Notes: generated by a model from the sequence alone, not told the origin. Positions 9,787 to 39,993 are shown, counted from the first letter of the stretch. The stretch: DNA of 51,288 bases from an uncultured Candidatus Saccharibacteria bacterium (GCA_947165975.1 CAMVCL010000007.1:1-51288), one strand, 5' to 3'. Numbers and translations: made by a program.

Positions 9787-11829
9787 ATGACAAAAGAAAA
9801 ACATGCAATATTAGCTCCAATAGGACTAGGTCTGATAGTCTTTGCTGGAGCATTTTTATTGTCTAATGATACTCACGCCGCATCCTACAATCTCACTCTC
9901 TCTTCTTCCAGTTCTCAATCCATTGATGTATCTAACATGGGAGATAAGACTGCCATTAGTGCAGATAATATCAATGTAGCTACTAACTGTAGATATGGCT
10001 ATAACCTTACTCTCTCTACTTCAGTAAATAATAATAATCTATATCTAAATGGTAATAGCTCTAATAATACAACTGGTACATACTTCTCTCCAGTAAATGG
10101 TACTACCTCGTTAAAGAACTCTCCTAATACATGGGGATACTATTATAATAGCTCTACTCCAACTACAGCTCCTACCTCATCTAATGTCTTCTCTCCAGTA
10201 CCAACACTTAGTAATCCTGCTACTATTAAGACTCCACTTACCACACCTAGTTCTTCAGACATTAATGATAACTTTAATGTCTACTATGGTGTAGCATCAT
10301 CAGATGATATGCCTGTAGGCACATATAAACTGATACCAGATACTAATAATTCAAATAATGATGGGACACTTGTCTATAATGCTACTATTGCTGATACATG
10401 TATAGCATATACAGTACATTTTAATCCAACAAGTTACTTTGAAGGAAAAGCTATCACTGGTGCTGGCACTATGAATGACCAGACTATCTATGAAGGTATG
10501 ACTATTTCACTTGCTAACGTAACCTTCTCTAACCCTACTAGAATTGATGGTGTAGATTATTACTTTGCTGGCTGGAATACAGCTCAAGATGGTAGTGGTA
10601 CACAGTATATCAATACTGAAGATGTGACTGACCTAGCAACAGCAGGAAGTAACATCACTCTTTATGCTATATGGACGGATTGTCCAGCAAAAAAAGTTTG
10701 TTATAGCAGTAACGCCACTAGCGGATTAAATGGAACAATGGGCGACGGAAATATAAAGTACAATAGTTATTATATGGATCTGATGGCATCGAACTATTCA
10801 CGTTTAGGATATGGGTTTGCGGGTTGGAATACAAAAAAAGATGGAACTGGAGTTATGTATGGTCCGAACGAAAAACTCTACTATACAACTTATAAGCAGT
10901 ATGATACAGGAGGACTTAAATTGTATGCTATATGGATTCCTGCGACTGGAAATATTCAAAACTGGAATGGTTGCCCTGATATGAACATAGGTGATGTCAC
11001 CGCTCTCACGGATAGCCGTGATAACAATACCTATGCTATAGCTAAGCTTGCAGACGGTAGATGTTGGATGATAGAAAATTTAAGACTAGATCATACGGCC
11101 AACACAAACACTTCTGGTGCTTTGGCTCAAGGGTATAGTTCTAGTTTCGCTGGATTAGCTGAATCGGAATCTGCAAATTTCAGTGAAACGAATATTGCAA
11201 ATAGTCTATATCGTTTAGATACTGATACCACTAGTACGGCAACTATTATCATTGATAGCGCTAGCCATATTGTAGGGACTACCGATTTTTCTAAATACGA
11301 TTTTCCAAGATATAACAACGATAATACCCAAAATAGAGCATCTAGCCCCACCAGTAACGGTAGTAGAAATATTTACTCCCGTGGCAATTACTACACATGG
11401 ACGGCAGCTATTGCTGACACTGATCATTATGAGGGCGGGATTCATAATACTACATCCATTTGCCCGAAGGGTTGGCACTTACCTGTTGGGGGTAACACTA
11501 CGATGAATGAGTTCGGTATGTTATCTAATGCATTGGGCGGTAAACATGATAATAATGGGATAGCACAATCAATGACTGACTATACAACTCCTGCTGGGGC
11601 AACTATGTCTGAAGTCTTTCGTAAATACCCAAACAATTTTATCTATTCTGGGTATTTTCTCGATTCGTCATCATCCAATATAGGTGTATATGGGAACTAC
11701 TGGTCCTCTACTTCATCTGGGGGATATAGGGGGTATGACTTTCATATAAACAATACCGTTGTTTATCCAGCCAATAATGATGATTACAAGTATTATGGAA
11801 ATACTATACGTTGTATTTCTGATTCTTAG
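9787..11829 (+). CDS. Secreted surface protein with InlB-type repeats and a C-terminal FISUMP domain
   Basis: 680 residues. Signal peptide ending near NDTHA (about residue 31). An Asn/Ser/Thr-rich beta-type N-terminal region is followed by two Listeria/Bacteroides (InlB B-type) repeats, YFAGWNTAQDGSGTQY and GFAGWNTKKDGTGVMYG, each ending LYAIW. The C-terminus is a fibrobacter-major-paralogous (FISUMP) domain of the C-type-lectin/formylglycine-enzyme fold: LTDSRDNNTYAIAKLADG, RCWMIENLRLD, SICPKGWHLPVGG, GNYWSSTSSGG, IRCISDS. The DGR target genes carry the same domain, but the end of this gene is AT-rich and does not resemble the template repeat, so it appears to be an invariant paralogue. Likely displayed or secreted. 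Confidence 0.8.
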   Translation: MTKEKHAILAPIGLGLIVFAGAFLLSNDTHAASYNLTLSSSSSQSIDVSNMGDKTAISADNINVATNCRYGYNLTLSTSVNNNNLYLNGNSSNNTTGTYFSPVNGTTSLKNSPNTWGYYYNSSTPTTAPTSSNVFSPVPTLSNPATIKTPLTTPSSSDINDNFNVYYGVASSDDMPVGTYKLIPDTNNSNNDGTLVYNATIADTCIAYTVHFNPTSYFEGKAITGAGTMNDQTIYEGMTISLANVTFSNPTRIDGVDYYFAGWNTAQDGSGTQYINTEDVTDLATAGSNITLYAIWTDCPAKKVCYSSNATSGLNGTMGDGNIKYNSYYMDLMASNYSRLGYGFAGWNTKKDGTGVMYGPNEKLYYTTYKQYDTGGLKLYAIWIPATGNIQNWNGCPDMNIGDVTALTDSRDNNTYAIAKLADGRCWMIENLRLDHTANTNTSGALAQGYSSSFAGLAESESANFSETNIANSLYRLDTDTTSTATIIIDSASHIVGTTDFSKYDFPRYNNDNTQNRASSPTSNGSRNIYSRGNYYTWTAAIADTDHYEGGIHNTTSICPKGWHLPVGGNTTMNEFGMLSNALGGKHDNNGIAQSMTDYTTPAGATMSEVFRKYPNNFIYSGYFLDSSSSNIGVYGNYWSSTSSGGYRGYDFHINNTVVYPANNDDYKYYGNTIRCISDS

Positions 11830-11856: not shown

Positions 11857-13533
11857 ATGACTAAAACAGTAGATAAACTAACTATAACAACGCTTAGCCT
11901 GGTAGGGCTGACTGTACTTATTGGGGCGAGCCTTTTGTCGTCGGAAGTATCGGCTAATGATAGTGCTATAAGCAATGTCTCAGTTAATGTTCCAGCAGCC
12001 TGTACTATGACTGGTACTGGTATGAATTCTCATAATGCCACTATTCCCAATGGTACCTATCAAGATAATATAGGTACTACTACCATGAAAGCTGTATGTA
12101 ATGATAGCAATGGTTTTGCTATCTATGCTATTGGATATACAGACAATGAATATGGAAAGACTGTACTAACTAATAGTACTTTAGGATCTTCTGCTGACAT
12201 AGCTACAGGAACAGCTACAAGTACAGAAAGTCCTGATGTATCTAACTGGGCTATGAAACTAGCTACAAATTCATCTGCTACTTACCCATTAACTCTAGAT
12301 AATAGCTTTGGTAATTACCACAGTGTCCCAGCAGAATATACCAAAGTAGCACATAGAGATTCTGGTACTGATACAGGAACTAGTGCAGTAGGAAGTGAGC
12401 TAGCAGCTACATATGCTGCTTATATGAGTAAGACTCAACCTGCTGGAACCTACATAGGACAAGTTAAATATACATTAGTTCATCCATCCACCCATGAAGC
12501 TCCAGTAGCATGTAATAATAAGGCTACTACTATATCTGAAGCAGTCTGTCTCCAAGACTTCGCTCATGTCAGTGAAGCTAACAGAAACTCCATCATCGCT
12601 TCTATGACTCCAGAACAACAATACACATTGAAAGACAGCAGAGATGGTAAGAGTTATACTATCGCTAAGTATCAAGTAGGAAACTCAGGTAATTATGATG
12701 TTTGGATGACTAAGAACCTAGACCTAGATCTACAAGCAGGCAATACCTACACTAATGAAGACACTGATATAGGCTACAATACTACAACGAATTCATATGA
12801 AACTGCTGCTTGGAGCCCTATCCGTTCTACTTACCAACCTACTTCCACCCATGTTCATGAATGGTGTCAGGGTGGTACTTGGAATTCACAACATGGTTGC
12901 GAGTTAAACGATACTCCAGAATCCTATGATCCAGGTGATCTGTATTGGAACGCTACAGAAAGTGACTTTAGTGACTGGAATGCCTACTACAATAGCTGTG
13001 ACTTTAGTACCCCTACACCAATCTGCGACCAAACTCTTAATCCCATCTCTACCTACGTATCATCTACTAGCTCTACCCCTCAGTACCATCTAGGTAACTA
13101 TTACAACTGGGCTGCTGCTCTTGCTACTAATGATTCCTCTCAGTTTAATAATTCTGACCTAGTAGAACGATCCATCTGTCCAGCTGGTTGGACTTTGCCT
13201 AGGATTGGTGAGGGTGAAGACTCCTTCTATAGTCTCTGGAACCAATATGGGTTAAGCAGCAGACCTGTAAATGGAAATAATAAACTGTGGACGAGTCCAC
13301 TTTACTTCGCCACGGGTGGGGCCTTTTATGGTGATCTGCGCGACGTCGGGGGCTACGGCGGCTTCTGGTCGTCTGTCCCCGATGGCTCCGACTACGCCAG
13401 GAATGCGTACTTCAGCGTGGATGGCGACTCCGGCCCGTCCGGCAACGGCATTCGGTTCGGCGGTTACTCAATTCGCTGTATAGCGCGTCCAGTAGCCGAT
13501 TCGGTATCCGGCGGAGGTGTTATCCCGGTGTAA
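11857..13533 (+). CDS. DGR target protein 1: secreted FISUMP/C-type-lectin-like protein ending in VR1
   Basis: 558 residues. N-terminal signal segment (TLSLVGLTVLIGASLLSSEVSA). The N-terminal domain (about 30-200) is shared with target 2 at 35610, e.g. MTGTGMNSHNATIPNGTYQ and YAIGYTDNEYGKTVL. The FISUMP domain begins TLKDSRDGKSYTIAKY, continues with VWMTKNLDLDL and ICPAGWTLPRIGEGED, and ends in the variable repeat from about residue 481 (GGFWSSVPDGS, IRCIARPV). The last 240 nt are abruptly GC-rich compared with the AT-rich body, as in target 2. Start chosen from GAAAGGAG 5 nt upstream. In DGRs the lectin-fold C-terminus is the ligand-binding face; the ligand here is unknown. Confidence 0.85.
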   Translation: MTKTVDKLTITTLSLVGLTVLIGASLLSSEVSANDSAISNVSVNVPAACTMTGTGMNSHNATIPNGTYQDNIGTTTMKAVCNDSNGFAIYAIGYTDNEYGKTVLTNSTLGSSADIATGTATSTESPDVSNWAMKLATNSSATYPLTLDNSFGNYHSVPAEYTKVAHRDSGTDTGTSAVGSELAATYAAYMSKTQPAGTYIGQVKYTLVHPSTHEAPVACNNKATTISEAVCLQDFAHVSEANRNSIIASMTPEQQYTLKDSRDGKSYTIAKYQVGNSGNYDVWMTKNLDLDLQAGNTYTNEDTDIGYNTTTNSYETAAWSPIRSTYQPTSTHVHEWCQGGTWNSQHGCELNDTPESYDPGDLYWNATESDFSDWNAYYNSCDFSTPTPICDQTLNPISTYVSSTSSTPQYHLGNYYNWAAALATNDSSQFNNSDLVERSICPAGWTLPRIGEGEDSFYSLWNQYGLSSRPVNGNNKLWTSPLYFATGGAFYGDLRDVGGYGGFWSSVPDGSDYARNAYFSVDGDSGPSGNGIRFGGYSIRCIARPVADSVSGGGVIPV

Positions 13534-13590
13534 CCCTACGGATTAGTTCTTCCTCTAGCCTCCAGTTTGTGTCCTTCCCGTCTTTTCTGA
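13299..13590 (+). repeat. VR1: diverged variable repeat of the DGR
   Basis: This stretch aligns over its coding part with the template repeat at 39512-39804 (minus strand): shared anchors include CTTTACTTCGCC, GACGTCGGG, TTCTGGTC, GCCAGGAAT and, past the stop codon, GTTTGTGTCCTTCCCG. Many differences fall on template adenines (AAC to GGC, TAC, GAC, TTC, CGC), as expected of mutagenic homing. At least a dozen fall on non-adenines (for example GTC to TCC, GTG to GTC, GAC to TAC), and the segment around the stop codon is not conserved. VR1 is therefore either an old copy or was last written from another template. Confidence 0.8.
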
Positions 13591-35609: not shown

Positions 35610-37319
35610 ATGATAAAGAACAAAAACTGGATCATCGCTACTCTCGTACTCATGGGGCTAACCATGTTGTCCGGGAGTTTTTTAATTTCTACTTCCGTCT
35701 CCGCTGACGATGTAGTGGATAATATCAACATTACAGTGCCAATCTCCTGCTCACTGTCAGGCACTGGCATGAATAGCCATAACGCTAATATAGTAAATGG
35801 CACTTATCAAGCAGACATAGGATCTACCACACTTAAAGCCTTCTGTAATGATACAAATGGTTTTGCTATCTATGCTATTGGTTTCACAGACAATGAATAT
35901 GGAAAGACCGTGCTCACTAACTCTACACTAGGTTCTTCTGCTGATATTGCTACAGGAACCGCAACAAGCGGAAGCACTAGTAATTGGGCTATGAAGCTAG
36001 ATACTAATGCAAGTGCTACTTATGCCCTAACACTAGACAATAGTTTTGGTAGTTACCATTCAGTACCAGCAGAATATACGAAAGTAGCTCATCGCGATAG
36101 TGGCACAGACATAGGAGTTAGTGCTACTGGTGCCTCCCTCACTTCTACTTATGCCGCCTTTATGGCTCAAACTCAACCTGCTGGGACTTATACTGGACAG
36201 GTTAAATACACTCTAGTTCATCCTTCAGATCATGTAGCTCCAGTAGTATGCAACAGTGATGCAACTACCATAGCAGAAGCTAAATGCTTGCAAGACTTTG
36301 CTCATGTCAGTGATACTAACCGAGCTTCCATCATCGCTTCTATGACACCAGAACAACAATATACCCTTAAAGATAGTAGAGATGGTAAAACCTATACTAT
36401 CGCTAAATATCCTGCAGGTACAGATTCAAACACCAACCAAACTATCTATGATGTTTGGATGACTCAGAACCTAGACTTAGATCTAAATGCTGGAACGACC
36501 TACACCAATGAAGATACAGACATTGGTTATAATACTACAACCAATACCTATGATACTGCGGCCTGGAGCCCAGTAAGATCCACCTACTCTGCTACTTCAA
36601 CCCACATTCATTCCTGGTGTGAGGGTGGTACTTGGAATTCTGAGTATGGCTATTGTGAACTAAACGATACTCCAGAATCCTATGACCCAGGCAACCTCTA
36701 CTGGAATGCTACAGAAAGTGATTACACTGACTGGGATGAATATTACAGTAGCTGTGATTATAGTACTCCTACACCAGTCTGTGACCAATCCAAGAACCCA
36801 ATCTCTACCTACGTAACTAACACTAGCTCTACCCCACAATACCACTTAGGCAACTACTACAACTGGGCCGCAGCTCTAGCTACTAACGATAGTTCTGTTT
36901 ATATAGACGAACAGTATACTGGCAATGTGATTGTAGAACAATCCATTTGTCCAGCTGGTTGGACTCTGCCACGAGTTGGCGAAGGTGAAGATACCTTCTA
37001 TAGTCTTTGGAATCAGTATGGCTTTAGTAACAGTTCTATAAACGGAAACAATAAGTTGTGGACGAGTCCACTTTACTTCGCCGCGGGCGGGGGCTTTAAC
37101 GGTTACCTGTACGACGTCGGGTTCGGCGGGTACTTCTGGTCACCTGTGCCCAATGGCTCCGGCTACGCCAGGGGTGGGGGCTTCAACGTAGATGGCGGCG
37201 TCACCCCGTCAGGCGACGACTATCGGTACGGCGGCAGCTCTGTTCGCTGTGTGGCGCGTCCGGTGGTTAGCTCGGGCTCCGGCGGTGGCGGGGGTGGTCC
37301 CGAGGGGCCTAACGTCTAG
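35610..37319 (+). CDS. DGR target protein 2: secreted FISUMP/C-type-lectin-like variable protein
   Basis: 569 residues. Signal segment IIATLVLMGLTMLSGSFLIS then TSVSA. N-terminal domain about 30-200 (SCSLSGTGMNSHNANIVNGT, FAIYAIGFTDNEYGKTVL) is shared with target 1; FISUMP domain from about 245 (TLKDSRDGKTYTIAKY, VWMTQNLDLDL, ICPAGWTLPRVGEGED). From about residue 488 to the end the protein is encoded by VR2: FAAGGGFNGYLYDVG, FWSPVPNGS, VRCVARPV and a Gly-rich tail. Residues at TR-adenine codons differ from the template, e.g. Asn to Gly, Tyr, Phe, Asp, Thr, Ser or Val. The tail region is abruptly GC-rich. The RBS is GAAGGATAA. The avd-like gene follows after 97 bp. Confidence 0.92.
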   Translation: MIKNKNWIIATLVLMGLTMLSGSFLISTSVSADDVVDNINITVPISCSLSGTGMNSHNANIVNGTYQADIGSTTLKAFCNDTNGFAIYAIGFTDNEYGKTVLTNSTLGSSADIATGTATSGSTSNWAMKLDTNASATYALTLDNSFGSYHSVPAEYTKVAHRDSGTDIGVSATGASLTSTYAAFMAQTQPAGTYTGQVKYTLVHPSDHVAPVVCNSDATTIAEAKCLQDFAHVSDTNRASIIASMTPEQQYTLKDSRDGKTYTIAKYPAGTDSNTNQTIYDVWMTQNLDLDLNAGTTYTNEDTDIGYNTTTNTYDTAAWSPVRSTYSATSTHIHSWCEGGTWNSEYGYCELNDTPESYDPGNLYWNATESDYTDWDEYYSSCDYSTPTPVCDQSKNPISTYVTNTSSTPQYHLGNYYNWAAALATNDSSVYIDEQYTGNVIVEQSICPAGWTLPRVGEGEDTFYSLWNQYGFSNSSINGNNKLWTSPLYFAAGGGFNGYLYDVGFGGYFWSPVPNGSGYARGGGFNVDGGVTPSGDDYRYGGSSVRCVARPVVSSGSGGGGGGPEGPNV

Positions 37320-37362
37320 TTCTGCCTCTATCTTCCGGTTTGTGTCCTTCCCGTCTTTCCTA
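37070..37362 (+). repeat. VR2: variable repeat of the DGR, current match of the template
   Basis: 293 bp, the same length as TR (39512-39804, minus strand). By hand alignment about 35 positions differ, and in every case the TR base is A (to G, T or C); no non-adenine difference was found. Substitutions concentrate in AAC codons. The repeat continues 43 nt past the TAG stop, where two more adenines are changed (CCAG to CCGG, CGAC to CGTC). The adenine of the stop codon itself is unchanged. Confidence 0.97.
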
Positions 37363-37416
37363 AACTAACCTGAAAAAAACATCAAGTAAAAACAATAAAA
37401 TTAACTGTTAAATTGT

Positions 37417-38337
37417 ATGCCAATAAAAAAGAACGAGAAGCCAGAAACCGCTCGCGTCACCCCAACGGGTGACGCGAGTTCTCAAGTGGAAGAAAAATCC
37501 ATCGCTAGAATTGAAGCGAAGATTGAAAGTCTAAAATCATCGCCAAAAGCCAAAAATAAAACTACTCAAGCAGAAATCAAGCGTCTGAAAACTGCACTGA
37601 ATAATGCATACAATGAGTATAAACATCGGGCAATGGATTTTGAGAAGAACAATTCATCTCATTTGCTTTTTGTGCGTTCTACGTCTGGATTTCATAAGTT
37701 GTTCGGGAGGTCATTGTTATTCTATGCCTTTGATATTGCCCCAAAGCTAGAACTGGAAGCCAGAATCTACTCTGATGGGGATTATGAAGCGAAGTCAGAT
37801 GCTGGGGTGATTTCTTTTCGTAGTTTGGATGGAGTGGAAAGTGGACTAACTAGACTGGGGGCGAAGCGGATTAAGCTAGATGATAATACTGGTAATATTG
37901 TGATGTTCAAATTGCCCTGGGAGTATAGCGAGTCTCAGATTGAAAGATATGAGGGAAAAAACACCTACAAGTTGCAGAAATATAATCACGTGATAATGAC
38001 GGAGAATGTGATACCCGTATTATATCTCCATCTAGATGATCTCCTTAAAGCTGTTTATGAGAATGTGCGCAGAATGGAACCGGTAGGACGCGAAACCCTT
38101 GGGAATATGATGGTACAGTTAGCCGCAGAAATGAAGCGGATCTACATAGAAATGGCTAATGGTCGTTTGAGAATTGATGAAGGGTTACGAATGATTATGG
38201 GTAGAATCAACAAGCTGAAATCCCAGTTAAAGATAATCATAGATCTTAAAATCTGGAATGCGAGGGTTTATGCGAGGATTGGAGATATCATCATCAAAAC
38301 GCAAGAAATCATTGAGATAGAATTAAAGAAAAAATAA
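37417..38337 (+). CDS. avd: DGR accessory protein: MutS-domain-I-like module fused to an Avd-like four-helix bundle
   Basis: 306 residues. After a coiled-coil N-terminus (about 25-75), residues 80-170 (SHLLFVRSTSGFHKLFGRSL, then AGVISFRSLDGVESGLTRLG) resemble the mismatch-binding domain I of MutS (LLxFRxGxFYxLFGxDA, then a Gly-Val segment). Residues about 203-300 (YLHLDDLLKAVYENVRRM, RETLGNMMVQLAAEMKRIYI, ARVYARIGDIIIKTQEI) match the Avd pattern, which in Bordetella phage forms a basic pentameric bundle that binds the RT and TR RNA. DGR surveys report separate avd and MutS-like (MSL) accessory genes; here both appear in one chain. The gene lies between VR2 and the RT, 3 nt before the RT. No RBS is evident. 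Confidence 0.75.
   Translation: MPIKKNEKPETARVTPTGDASSQVEEKSIARIEAKIESLKSSPKAKNKTTQAEIKRLKTALNNAYNEYKHRAMDFEKNNSSHLLFVRSTSGFHKLFGRSLLFYAFDIAPKLELEARIYSDGDYEAKSDAGVISFRSLDGVESGLTRLGAKRIKLDDNTGNIVMFKLPWEYSESQIERYEGKNTYKLQKYNHVIMTENVIPVLYLHLDDLLKAVYENVRRMEPVGRETLGNMMVQLAAEMKRIYIEMANGRLRIDEGLRMIMGRINKLKSQLKIIIDLKIWNARVYARIGDIIIKTQEIIEIELKKK
37451..37478 (+). other. Strong GC-rich hairpin 88 bp downstream of VR2, candidate DGR target-recognition structure
   Basis: CTCGCGTCACCC and GGGTGACGCGAG form a perfect 12-bp stem around the 4-nt loop CAAC, inside the first 20 codons of the accessory gene. In the Bordetella phage DGR a GC-rich hairpin/cruciform with a 4-nt loop close to the 3' end of VR increases homing. 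The one here is longer and lies farther away. Confidence 0.6.
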
Positions 38338-38340
38338 GTA

Positions 38341-39480
38341 ATGGGCGGGCGTTTTGACTTTAGTAAATGGTTACTCATTGAGCTGATTGAAGCCTATCAT
38401 GATGCCAGAAGAGGTGGTAAAAGAAAAACTAAGAATACCCATGAGCTGGAGATGAATGAGCTAGAGAACATTGTGGTACTTCGGGACGCTATTATTAATC
38501 ACAAATATAAACCAAGTAGAGGAATTGCTTTCATTATTCATGATCCAGTCATAAGAGAAATCTTTGCAGCTCCATTTGTAGATAGAATCGTCCATCATTT
38601 CTTGTATAAACATGCGATTTTATGGTGGGAGCCAAGATTATGGAAAGGTGCTTATTCTTGTCGTAAGGGCAAAGGTACTCTATATGGGATCATAGATTTG
38701 CAAAAAAATATGCGGACTGCCTCACGAGATGGCTCTAGACGAGCGATAGTAGTAAAAAGAGATTTGCAAGGATTCTTCATGAGTATGGATCACAACAAGT
38801 TATATGCCCGAGTATGTTGGGGACTAGAACGTCAATATAAAGATGGCGGAGAACTATATAGGACTTTGAAATATCTTTGGAAAGAGATAATTTTTGACGA
38901 ACCTACTCGGGGTGTCCGGGTTAGAGGTACGGAGCGTGAGTGGAGCGAATTGCCGATCAGCAAAAGCCTGTTTTACCAGCCGAAATCGCTTGGGATAGTA
39001 ATAGGTAACCTTACTTCGCAACTTTTGTCCAATATCTTCCTAGATATGCTAGATAGGTTCGTGGTTTATGAACTTGGTTACAAATCTTATGGACGTTATG
39101 TAGATGACTTCTACATAGTGGTATCAGAGGATGAGCTGGAAATGCTATTAAAAAGGGATCTGCCTAGAATAGATTTGTTTTTGGGGAAACTGGGTCTTAC
39201 TATACATCCAAAGAAACATTACGAGATAGACATCCGAGATGGAGTCAACTTCTTAGGTGCGAAGGTGTATCGTGATCATATATTGCCTGGACCGCGATCA
39301 CTAAATAACATGGCGGATTTAGTATACTTAGTGGAGACAACTGGAGGGGGTAATTTTTCTGGAATAGGTTCATATGATGGGTTATTTGCTTACTATGATA
39401 GCGAGAAAGCAATCAGGAAGATTTACCAGAAAGTAGGATGGGAATATCATAATTTACCAGATAGAACTCTCAACCTGTAG
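38341..39480 (+). CDS. DGR reverse transcriptase
   Basis: 379 residues. RT motifs in order: IREIFAAPFVDRIVHHFLY (motif 2 region), VVKRDLQGFFMSMDHNKLY with Asp141 (motif A), SLGIVIGNLTSQLLSNIFLD with IGNLTSQ at 221-227, and the catalytic YVDD (253-256, GRYVDDFYIV), then LGLTIHPKKHYE (motif D/E) and FLGAKVY. The (I/V)GNxxSQ motif in place of QGxxxSP is the mark of DGR RTs and separates it from group II intron and retron enzymes. It lacks maturase and endonuclease domains, as expected. It starts 3 nt after the accessory gene. The protein copies TR RNA with errors at adenines; the accessory protein is normally required. Confidence 0.96.
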   Translation: MGGRFDFSKWLLIELIEAYHDARRGGKRKTKNTHELEMNELENIVVLRDAIINHKYKPSRGIAFIIHDPVIREIFAAPFVDRIVHHFLYKHAILWWEPRLWKGAYSCRKGKGTLYGIIDLQKNMRTASRDGSRRAIVVKRDLQGFFMSMDHNKLYARVCWGLERQYKDGGELYRTLKYLWKEIIFDEPTRGVRVRGTEREWSELPISKSLFYQPKSLGIVIGNLTSQLLSNIFLDMLDRFVVYELGYKSYGRYVDDFYIVVSEDELEMLLKRDLPRIDLFLGKLGLTIHPKKHYEIDIRDGVNFLGAKVYRDHILPGPRSLNNMADLVYLVETTGGGNFSGIGSYDGLFAYYDSEKAIRKIYQKVGWEYHNLPDRTLNL

Positions 39481-39978
39481 CGGTTACCGCAAATTGACGC
39501 TTTGTGTAGCGTAGGAAAGTCGGGAAGGACACAAACTGGAAGATAGAGGCAGAACTAGTTGTTAGGTCCCTTGGGACCACCTCCGCCACCGCCGGAGTCC
39601 GAGCTAACCACTGGACGCGCCACACAGCGAACAGAGTTGCCGTTGTTCCGATTGTTGTTGTCTGACGGGTTGACGTTGCCATCTACGTTGAAGTTCCCAT
39701 TCCTGGCGTTGTTGGAGCCATTGGGCACAGGTGACCAGAAGTTCCCGTCGTTCCCGACGTCGTTCAGGTTACCGTTAAAGTTCCCGCCCGCGGCGAAGTA
39801 AAGTCTCTAGCTTTAAAAAGAATCTTTTGACCTCAGCCCACTCCTTGAAATGGACGATGGAACAGTAGTAAACCCATGAATAATTGCATAGGTAGATCCT
39901 TTGCCTTTCCAAATAAATCTGTAAGCGGAGTGGGCATCACCTCGGATCCGCTAGATACAGAAGTGCGGCTAACCGCTA
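39480..39978 (-). ncRNA. Putative TR-containing RNA of the DGR
   Basis: A TGT-TATAAT promoter on the minus strand (39985-39993) predicts a start near 39978, exactly where a hairpin-forming TAGCGGTTAGCCGC begins. About 170 nt of leader follow, including GCCCACTCC/GGAGTGGGC pairing (39836-39844 with 39927-39935), then the 293-nt TR. A second hairpin GCGG-TAA-CCGC lies at 39480-39490, next to the RT stop. The RNA would thus be about 500 nt with a hairpin near each end. No other gene is apparent in 39481-40010. Confidence 0.65.
39512..39804 (-). repeat. Template repeat (TR) of the DGR, inverted relative to RT and target
   Basis: 293 bp, read on the minus strand. It would translate, in the VR frame, to an Asn-rich string such as FNGNLNDVGNDGNFW, because variable sites are AAC or AAT, codons that cannot become stops by adenine mutation. 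Everything except adenines is identical to VR2. Ends: ACTTTACTTCGCC at the start and CTTTCCTA at the end, beyond which similarity stops. Confidence 0.97.
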
Positions 39979-39984
39979 TGGTAT

Positions 39985-39993
39985 ATTATAACA
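39985..39993 (-). promoter_or_regulatory. Extended -10 promoter of the TR RNA
   Basis: The minus strand reads TGT-TATAAT, the form used by core genes and tRNAs here; no good -35 is present. It points into the TR and away from tRNA-Glu. Confidence 0.6.

Follow-up and report, generated by a model that had tools for sequence, protein, structure and literature searches.

A diversity-generating retroelement of Candidatus Saccharibacteria with an antisense, probably independently transcribed template repeat and a structured leader

The window, a stretch of 51,288 nucleotides from an uncultured Candidatus Saccharibacteria bacterium, carries what is, by the defining features tested, a genuine diversity-generating retroelement (DGR) of derived architecture. 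Our main reading, held at a probability of about 0.9, is that its template repeat (TR) is antisense to the reverse transcriptase (RT) gene, is transcribed independently and is preceded by a structured leader. The assembly is near-complete (882 kb), and the named genomes to which its RT is related belong to Candidatus Saccharibacteria and include two from goat gut. An earlier note on this DNA had proposed a complete DGR, and this proposal was borne out: an adenine-only pattern, a DGR-type RT, an Avd fold and a FISUMP-like target occur together.

The repeat pair and the adenine signature

35610..37319, plus strand: target gene 2, 569 aa, with a C-terminal FISUMP-like domain that contains VR2 and, by eye, an N-terminal signal/TM-like segment
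37070..37362, plus strand: VR2, the variable repeat at the 3' end of target gene 2, with 35 differences from TR, each at a TR adenine
39512..39804, minus strand: TR, on the strand opposite to the RT gene and downstream of it
11857..13533, plus strand: target gene 1, 558 aa, FISUMP (TIGR02145, 45.2 bits, over the cut-off)
13299..13588, plus strand: VR1, decayed, inside the paralogous FISUMP gene (target 1)

VR2 and TR form an inverted pair. Their ungapped alignment agrees with the claim of the earlier note that both are 293 bp long and differ at about 35 positions, all of them adenines in TR. Tabulated by template base, 35 of 66 adenines are mismatched (24 A>G, 10 A>T and 1 A>C; 31 kept) against none of 227 non-adenine positions, and the equal proportion at other bases, which the note had named as refuting, was thus not seen. 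The chance probability that all 35 mismatches fall on TR adenines is about 10^-26.6. The first mismatches at non-adenine positions are 37363-37364, directly beyond the repeat.

The variable TR codons were said to be AAC or AAT and unable to yield stops. This holds for 18 of the 25 changed codons; the others are GAC (3), GGA (2), CCA (1) and AAG (1), and the last of these, codon 565 of target 2, could mutate to TAG. The stop codon of target 2 (37317-37319) lies inside VR2 and leaves 43 bp of the repeat 3' of it. Since three of the changes are synonymous third-position changes (37262, 37292 and 37307) and one lies in the 3' UTR (37337), the pattern is mutational and not the result of selection alone. 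Since VR2 was last rewritten by homing, its non-adenine positions have diverged by less than 1.3% at 95%. The recent activity that had been claimed for target 2 therefore stands in a relative sense only: the rewriting of VR2 is recent compared with VR1 and with neutral drift.

VR1 was the one further repeat found by a search of the organism's own genome, and the earlier reading had missed it as an old, decayed target. Compared with TR, 37 of 65 adenines and 34 of 227 other positions are changed, an adenine enrichment with P = 8e-12 (Fisher's test, with counts off by one in each class). Judged by its sequence, VR1 is a former target that has long drifted. Target 2 itself matches TIGR02145 (FISUMP) with an E-value of 2e-8 and 35.1 bits, under the cut-off of 41.65. 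In DGRs generally, VR sits at the 3' end of its target gene, as VR2 does, and the protein part concerned commonly has a C-type-lectin-like fold.

The IMH mark and the mutation spectrum

37350..37360, plus strand: IMH-like end of VR2, CCCGTCTTTCC (TR: CCCGACTTTCC), with C or T in VR against A in TR in 7/7 readable clade loci
39514..39524, minus strand: IMH*-like end of TR, CCCGACTTTCC, from clade comparison
37451..37478, plus strand: 12-bp inverted repeat with a CAAC loop, 88 bp past VR2 and within the accessory gene; its role is doubtful

The ends of the repeats were compared in a clade of eight species whose RTs share at least 62% identity, referred to below as the leader clade. The TR 3' end is GACTTTCC in this clade (GACTTCC in L036), and it is matched by G[C/T]CTTTCC at the VR end in all seven readable loci; L035 was left out of this count, as its repeat as found stops earlier. 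The site corresponds to position 37354 (A>T) in VR2, is C or T and never A in VR, and is T in VR1. It is probable from these comparisons that the difference at 37354 is an IMH*/IMH mark and not a homing mutation, in which case 34 of the 35 sites record homing. A fixed base at a template adenine points to copying into VR that begins on the 5' side of the mark. A comparable IMH/IMH* difference is found in nanoarchaeal DGRs (PMC4372165).

The first adenine of AAC in TR is changed in 69%, mainly to T (56%), and the second in 42%, mainly to G (66%). This spectrum resembles the context bias of BPP-1 bRT (PMC12875486), although selection on the target also shapes the figures obtained here. In BPP-1, a GRNA-loop hairpin lies 4-34 bp after VR (PMC3240598). 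No such hairpin was found 4-34 bp after VR2, only the CAAC-loop repeat at +88, which is not conserved across the clade.

The reverse transcriptase and the accessory protein

38341..39480, plus strand: DGR reverse transcriptase, 379 aa, best PDB match BPP-1 bRT; phrog_1423
37417..38337, plus strand: accessory protein, 306 aa, with a MutS-I-like N domain (~80-170) and an Avd four-helix bundle (196-306)

The RT reading frame carries both motifs that had been reported for it, IGNLTSQ (the DGR-type xGNxxSQ motif) and YVDD. Its best relative in the PDB is BPP-1 bRT (8ub7, E = 1.3e-22), whereas group II-type RTs reach 2.5e-7 or weaker; the RT is thus not nearer to those of group II introns, the other outcome that had been named as refuting. 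It also matches the RT family phrog_1423 with an E-value of 4e-67. An origin from a group II or retron RT was rejected, as matches lie far under the cut-offs (TIGR04416, 61.6 bits against 300). A phage origin was also rejected: there are no close relatives in IMG/VR contigs, and the best phage DGR RT is 37% identical.

The accessory protein has no Pfam match, and its AF2 model has a pLDDT of 92.7. The Avd-like protein that had been described is recognizable in its C-terminal bundle, which aligns with BPP-1 Avd at VIA Z scores of 14.4 (8ub7_E) and 14.3 (4dwl_D) with 8% identity. S23-type bundles score higher (2gsc, Z 17.4; 2rld, Z 15.9), and unrelated bundles score 12.7 and below. An Avd-type accessory protein is a usual, though not universal, feature of DGRs.

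An additional N-terminal domain had escaped the earlier reading. Residues 60-182 modelled alone give a pLDDT of 93.7. A Foldseek search with this domain returned no significant match, while the top 12 chains in VIA are all MutS/MSH proteins, aligned at the mismatch domain with Z scores of 5.7 at most, which is under the level of proof. The domain is collinear with a Patescibacteria MutS-I profile (hhalign P = 5.7e-4, probability 30%), with the FxE motif of MutS-I replaced by aromatic-x-K; a single-sequence HMM comparison with MutS-I scored no better than shuffles. MutS-I was found in 0 of 100 genomes of the genus and in 14 of 59 from the phylum. Taken together, profile and modelled fold suggest that the N domain is likely homologous to MutS-I (PF01624), the resemblance being weak.

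An antisense TR as the rule in the genus

A survey covered 108 loci, which apart from L028 belong to the genus or its RT clade, and 84 of them yielded a TR-VR pair. Pooled, these pairs differ at 1784 of 4793 TR adenines and at 72 of 13402 non-adenine positions; the tally describes the set but is no independent test, since the pair search itself favours adenine mismatches and a few of the loci are near-duplicates. In 79 of 83 genus loci (L028 left out) TR follows the RT gene downstream in antisense orientation, the exceptions being L021, L079, L113 and L093. Other genera of the class supplied 20 loci with 12 pairs: nine with a sense TR, three antisense-upstream and none antisense-downstream. 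This genus-wide antisense layout with its own leader had not been noticed in the earlier reading.

All 79 antisense-downstream loci fall within one 84-row group of the RT tree (99/94), whose neighbours have a sense TR, and the orientation switches at a few tips. The tree indicates that the antisense TR is a derived architecture. One inversion of a downstream TR followed by a few reversions looks like the simplest reading; accounting for the orientation label takes six changes, which leaves room for more than one event.

The predicted promoter and the leader RNA

39985..39990, minus strand: -10 box TATAAT of the predicted TR promoter, placed alike in 8/8 clade loci as TATAAT or TAAAAT
39805..39984, minus strand: structured leader RNA 5' of TR, 38-pair structure; model R1, 149.5 bits

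The leader measures 176-198 nt in the clade and about 180 nt here. A structure of five helices fits 90.1% of cells in the clade alignment, and slid versions of it fall to 51% or less. The percentage of paired cells is favoured by construction, since the structure was drawn from the same sequences; compensatory counts are the stronger evidence. It was found that 22 of the 38 pairs are changed on both sides, in 49 cells, and none of 500 shuffles did as well. The folding of single sequences is mildly above shuffle stability (z of -1.0 for the leader and -1.6 for the whole RNA). The best-conserved blocks include unpaired, purine-rich stretches. A coding function was rejected, as every frame is interrupted within about 50 codons and indels in the clade do not come in multiples of three.

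Comparison of the leader with 4227 Rfam models revealed no family, only the adjoining tRNA, with E-values up to 1. The R1 model scores 142-172 bits at the eight clade loci and otherwise finds two clear partial copies among 174 genomes, L062 and L065, which adjoin orphan target genes. These two were rejected as leader-bearing cassettes; they are remnants, each consisting of a target gene next to part of a leader, and no complete cassette lies in either stretch. The R1 fold is limited to the eight species, and other clades share the position and the closing complementarity described below, not the fold.

Complementary ends of the predicted RNA

39970..39978, minus strand: 5' strand of the closing helix, UAGCGGUUA, the bases after the -10 box
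39478..39486, minus strand: 3' strand of the closing helix, UAACCGCUA, overlapping the RT stop codon; 0/20000 permutations in the eight-species clade

The two ends of the predicted RNA are complementary, and the strands differ in sequence by species: UAGCGGUUA/UAACCGCUA here, GUAGACCGC/GCGGUCUAC in L005 and GCGAAGAUCGC/GCGAUCUUCGC in L035. When tails were permuted among the clade species, none of 20000 permutations was as good, with a mean of -18.5 kcal/mol for a species' own tail versus -11.2 kcal/mol for others. Over 78 antisense loci the z score is -6.2 (-4.5 without the clade), and 46 non-clade loci anchored on a TATAAT-like box again gave 0/20000. The adjoining upstream window partly covers the helix region and gave 1/20000; nothing comparable appeared in windows shifted by -60, -40 or by +20 and more. 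In the clade test with a 30-nt window an upstream TATAAT was chosen in L004, whose helix is recovered by the whole-leader and anchored tests. The energy of long gapped duplexes proved a weaker test (167/20000 within the clade, 1057/20000 for loci outside it), its signal drowned by long duplexes with bulges, and ungapped helices were used instead.

Proposed mechanism

We propose that the predicted TR promoter drives a transcript of the TR strand that runs toward the RT gene. The RNA would be about 510 nt long, made up of the folded leader of ~180 nt, the 293-nt TR and a tail of ~35 nt, which would pair with the first RNA bases and close the molecule. The leader and closing helix would then probably serve to recruit RT-Avd and to fix the start of the cDNA directly 3' of TR, a docking and priming role to which we give somewhat better than an even chance. 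The ~30 nt between TR and the RT stop codon would place docking in the leader, in the short tail or in RNA antisense to the RT gene. The RT would miscopy template adenines, and the cDNA would replace VR2 as far as the IMH-like motif, diversifying mainly Asn codons of the FISUMP-like surface protein. The MutS-I-like domain N-terminal to Avd might act by binding either the folded RNA or the cDNA-VR duplex with its mismatches.

A wider proposal is that of a lineage-wide redesign, in which the template became a self-contained convergent ncRNA with paired ends, the structure for RT docking moved from 3' of TR to 5' of it, and Avd acquired a mismatch-recognition-like domain in hosts in which no MutS was found. 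We would give this even odds.

Alternative explanations

The leader could instead be a regulator and not a dock for RT-Avd, acting as antisense RNA on the 3' end of the RT mRNA or as an expression switch between a local 5' hairpin and the closing helix. The overlap of the 3' closing strand with the RT stop codon, the convergent layout in 79 loci and the local hairpin that the 5' closing bases can form in the clade speak for such a role. Conserved, unpaired purine-rich blocks are rather what is expected of protein or tertiary contacts, and in BPP-1 the RNA docking element adjoins TR (PMC12875486), so that regulation seems the less probable role, though a serious one. Less probable again is that the closing repeat acts as DNA and forms the terminal inverted repeats of a TR cassette that can move or invert, an inversion of which produced the antisense TR. 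With and without G-U wobble the closing signal is about equally strong (z of -6.6 vs -6.1), which makes a DNA role of those bases possible, and the flips at a few tips of the RT tree point the same way. Against this, the position of the repeat is locked to the bases following the -10 box, the enclosed leader helices covary as RNA, and no recombinase was seen tied to the cassette.

That the element is degenerate and homed only in the past is very unlikely. The decay of VR1 speaks for it, but VR2 has no changes at its 227 non-adenine positions, and the element looks functional and may still be active, with its RT and accessory genes as well as TR and the leader intact. A plain duplication of a gene end, since altered by diversifying selection and lying close to an RT of group II or another kind, can practically be dismissed: the weak group II match to TIGR04416 speaks for it, whereas the adenine-only changes extend to synonymous and 3' UTR sites, the same signature recurs at 84 loci and the RT is nearest to BPP-1 bRT. 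A DGR with an antisense, independently transcribed TR and a structured leader is thus preferred.

Significance and comparison with known systems

The making, recognition and priming of DGR template RNA are known mainly from one phage, with a structured RNA 3' of TR in an operon. The loci described here add about eighty natural examples in which TR lies in an apparently separate transcript with complementary ends. The RNA elements for recruitment and priming would then be separable from coding sequence and testable by compensatory mutation. The layout also suggests a compact cassette for the template that could serve in targeted diversification. The genus consists of host-dependent, ultra-small bacteria, and about half of its species carry such elements. 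DGRs with a MutS-like (MSL) accessory gene were reportedly described by Wu et al. in 2018; these too have a MutS-like accessory protein, whereas here the MutS-I-like domain is fused to Avd.

The location of TR and RT on different strands is already known. Inverted DGRs were described as group 4 by Schillinger in 2012 (PMC3521204) and as G5 by Yan in 2019 (PMC6642488), and opposite strands imply separate transcripts there as here. In group 4, TR, VR and target all lie opposite to the RT, whereas here only TR is flipped and VR2 and its target remain on the RT strand. No leader RNA is reported in the available parts of these two descriptions, and in a partial coverage of DGR papers neither a TR leader RNA nor a closing helix was found described. 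The Patescibacteria clade of Roux 2021 (PMC8144416) consists of cellular DGRs, as is the case here; searched by term, that paper gave no mention of orientation, antisense or Saccharibacteria.

The closest parallel is the BPP-1 DGR, which the present element resembles in its RT (1e-22), its Avd fold (Z 14.4), the adenine-only TR-VR differences and the IMH/IMH* pair. The TR of BPP-1 shares a strand with avd and brt and is placed between the two, whereas here TR is antisense and downstream, ~30 nt from the RT stop. A structured docking spacer RNA follows TR in BPP-1 (PMC12875486); the RNA structure is thus 3' of TR in the phage and 5' of TR in the present element.

Genomic context of the targets

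The stretch separating target 1, a FISUMP gene with a decayed VR1, from target 2, the FISUMP-like gene that carries VR2, resembles a mobile element or an island. Immediately upstream of target 1 lies a third FISUMP gene.

9787-11829: third FISUMP protein, 680 aa, immediately upstream of target 1
13943-35341: inter-target region, between target 1 and target 2

The inter-target region encodes GmrSD/HNH and an EcoRI-type methylase, a Sau3AI-type nuclease with a cytosine methylase, MT-A70, a TrwB-like coupling protein and a replication-relaxation protein. It also holds two serine integrases, side by side, which end shortly upstream of target 2. This region may have split an original target 1-target 2-DGR block. 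The third FISUMP protein contains a Listeria-Bacteroides repeat, and no VR was detectable in its gene.

Distribution and target sites

Genus-wide, the RT type of the present DGR was found in 90 of 174 species genomes, with up to four copies per genome. Two loci, L062 and L065, have orphan FISUMP targets adjoining a leader RNA fragment in reverse orientation. Neither stretch contains a complete DGR cassette, and both are likely DGR remnants left by deletion.

Downstream of VR2, one inverted repeat was noted, of which no counterpart was seen in the clade relatives.

37451-37478: perfect 12-bp inverted repeat with a CAAC loop, 88 bp past VR2, within the accessory gene

Directly 3' of VR, an A-rich motif resembling GAAAnnCAAAGAAA is common to six loci (L005, L032, L033, L034, L036 and L037). 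This motif is possibly a target-site element that takes the place of the BPP-1-type hairpin.
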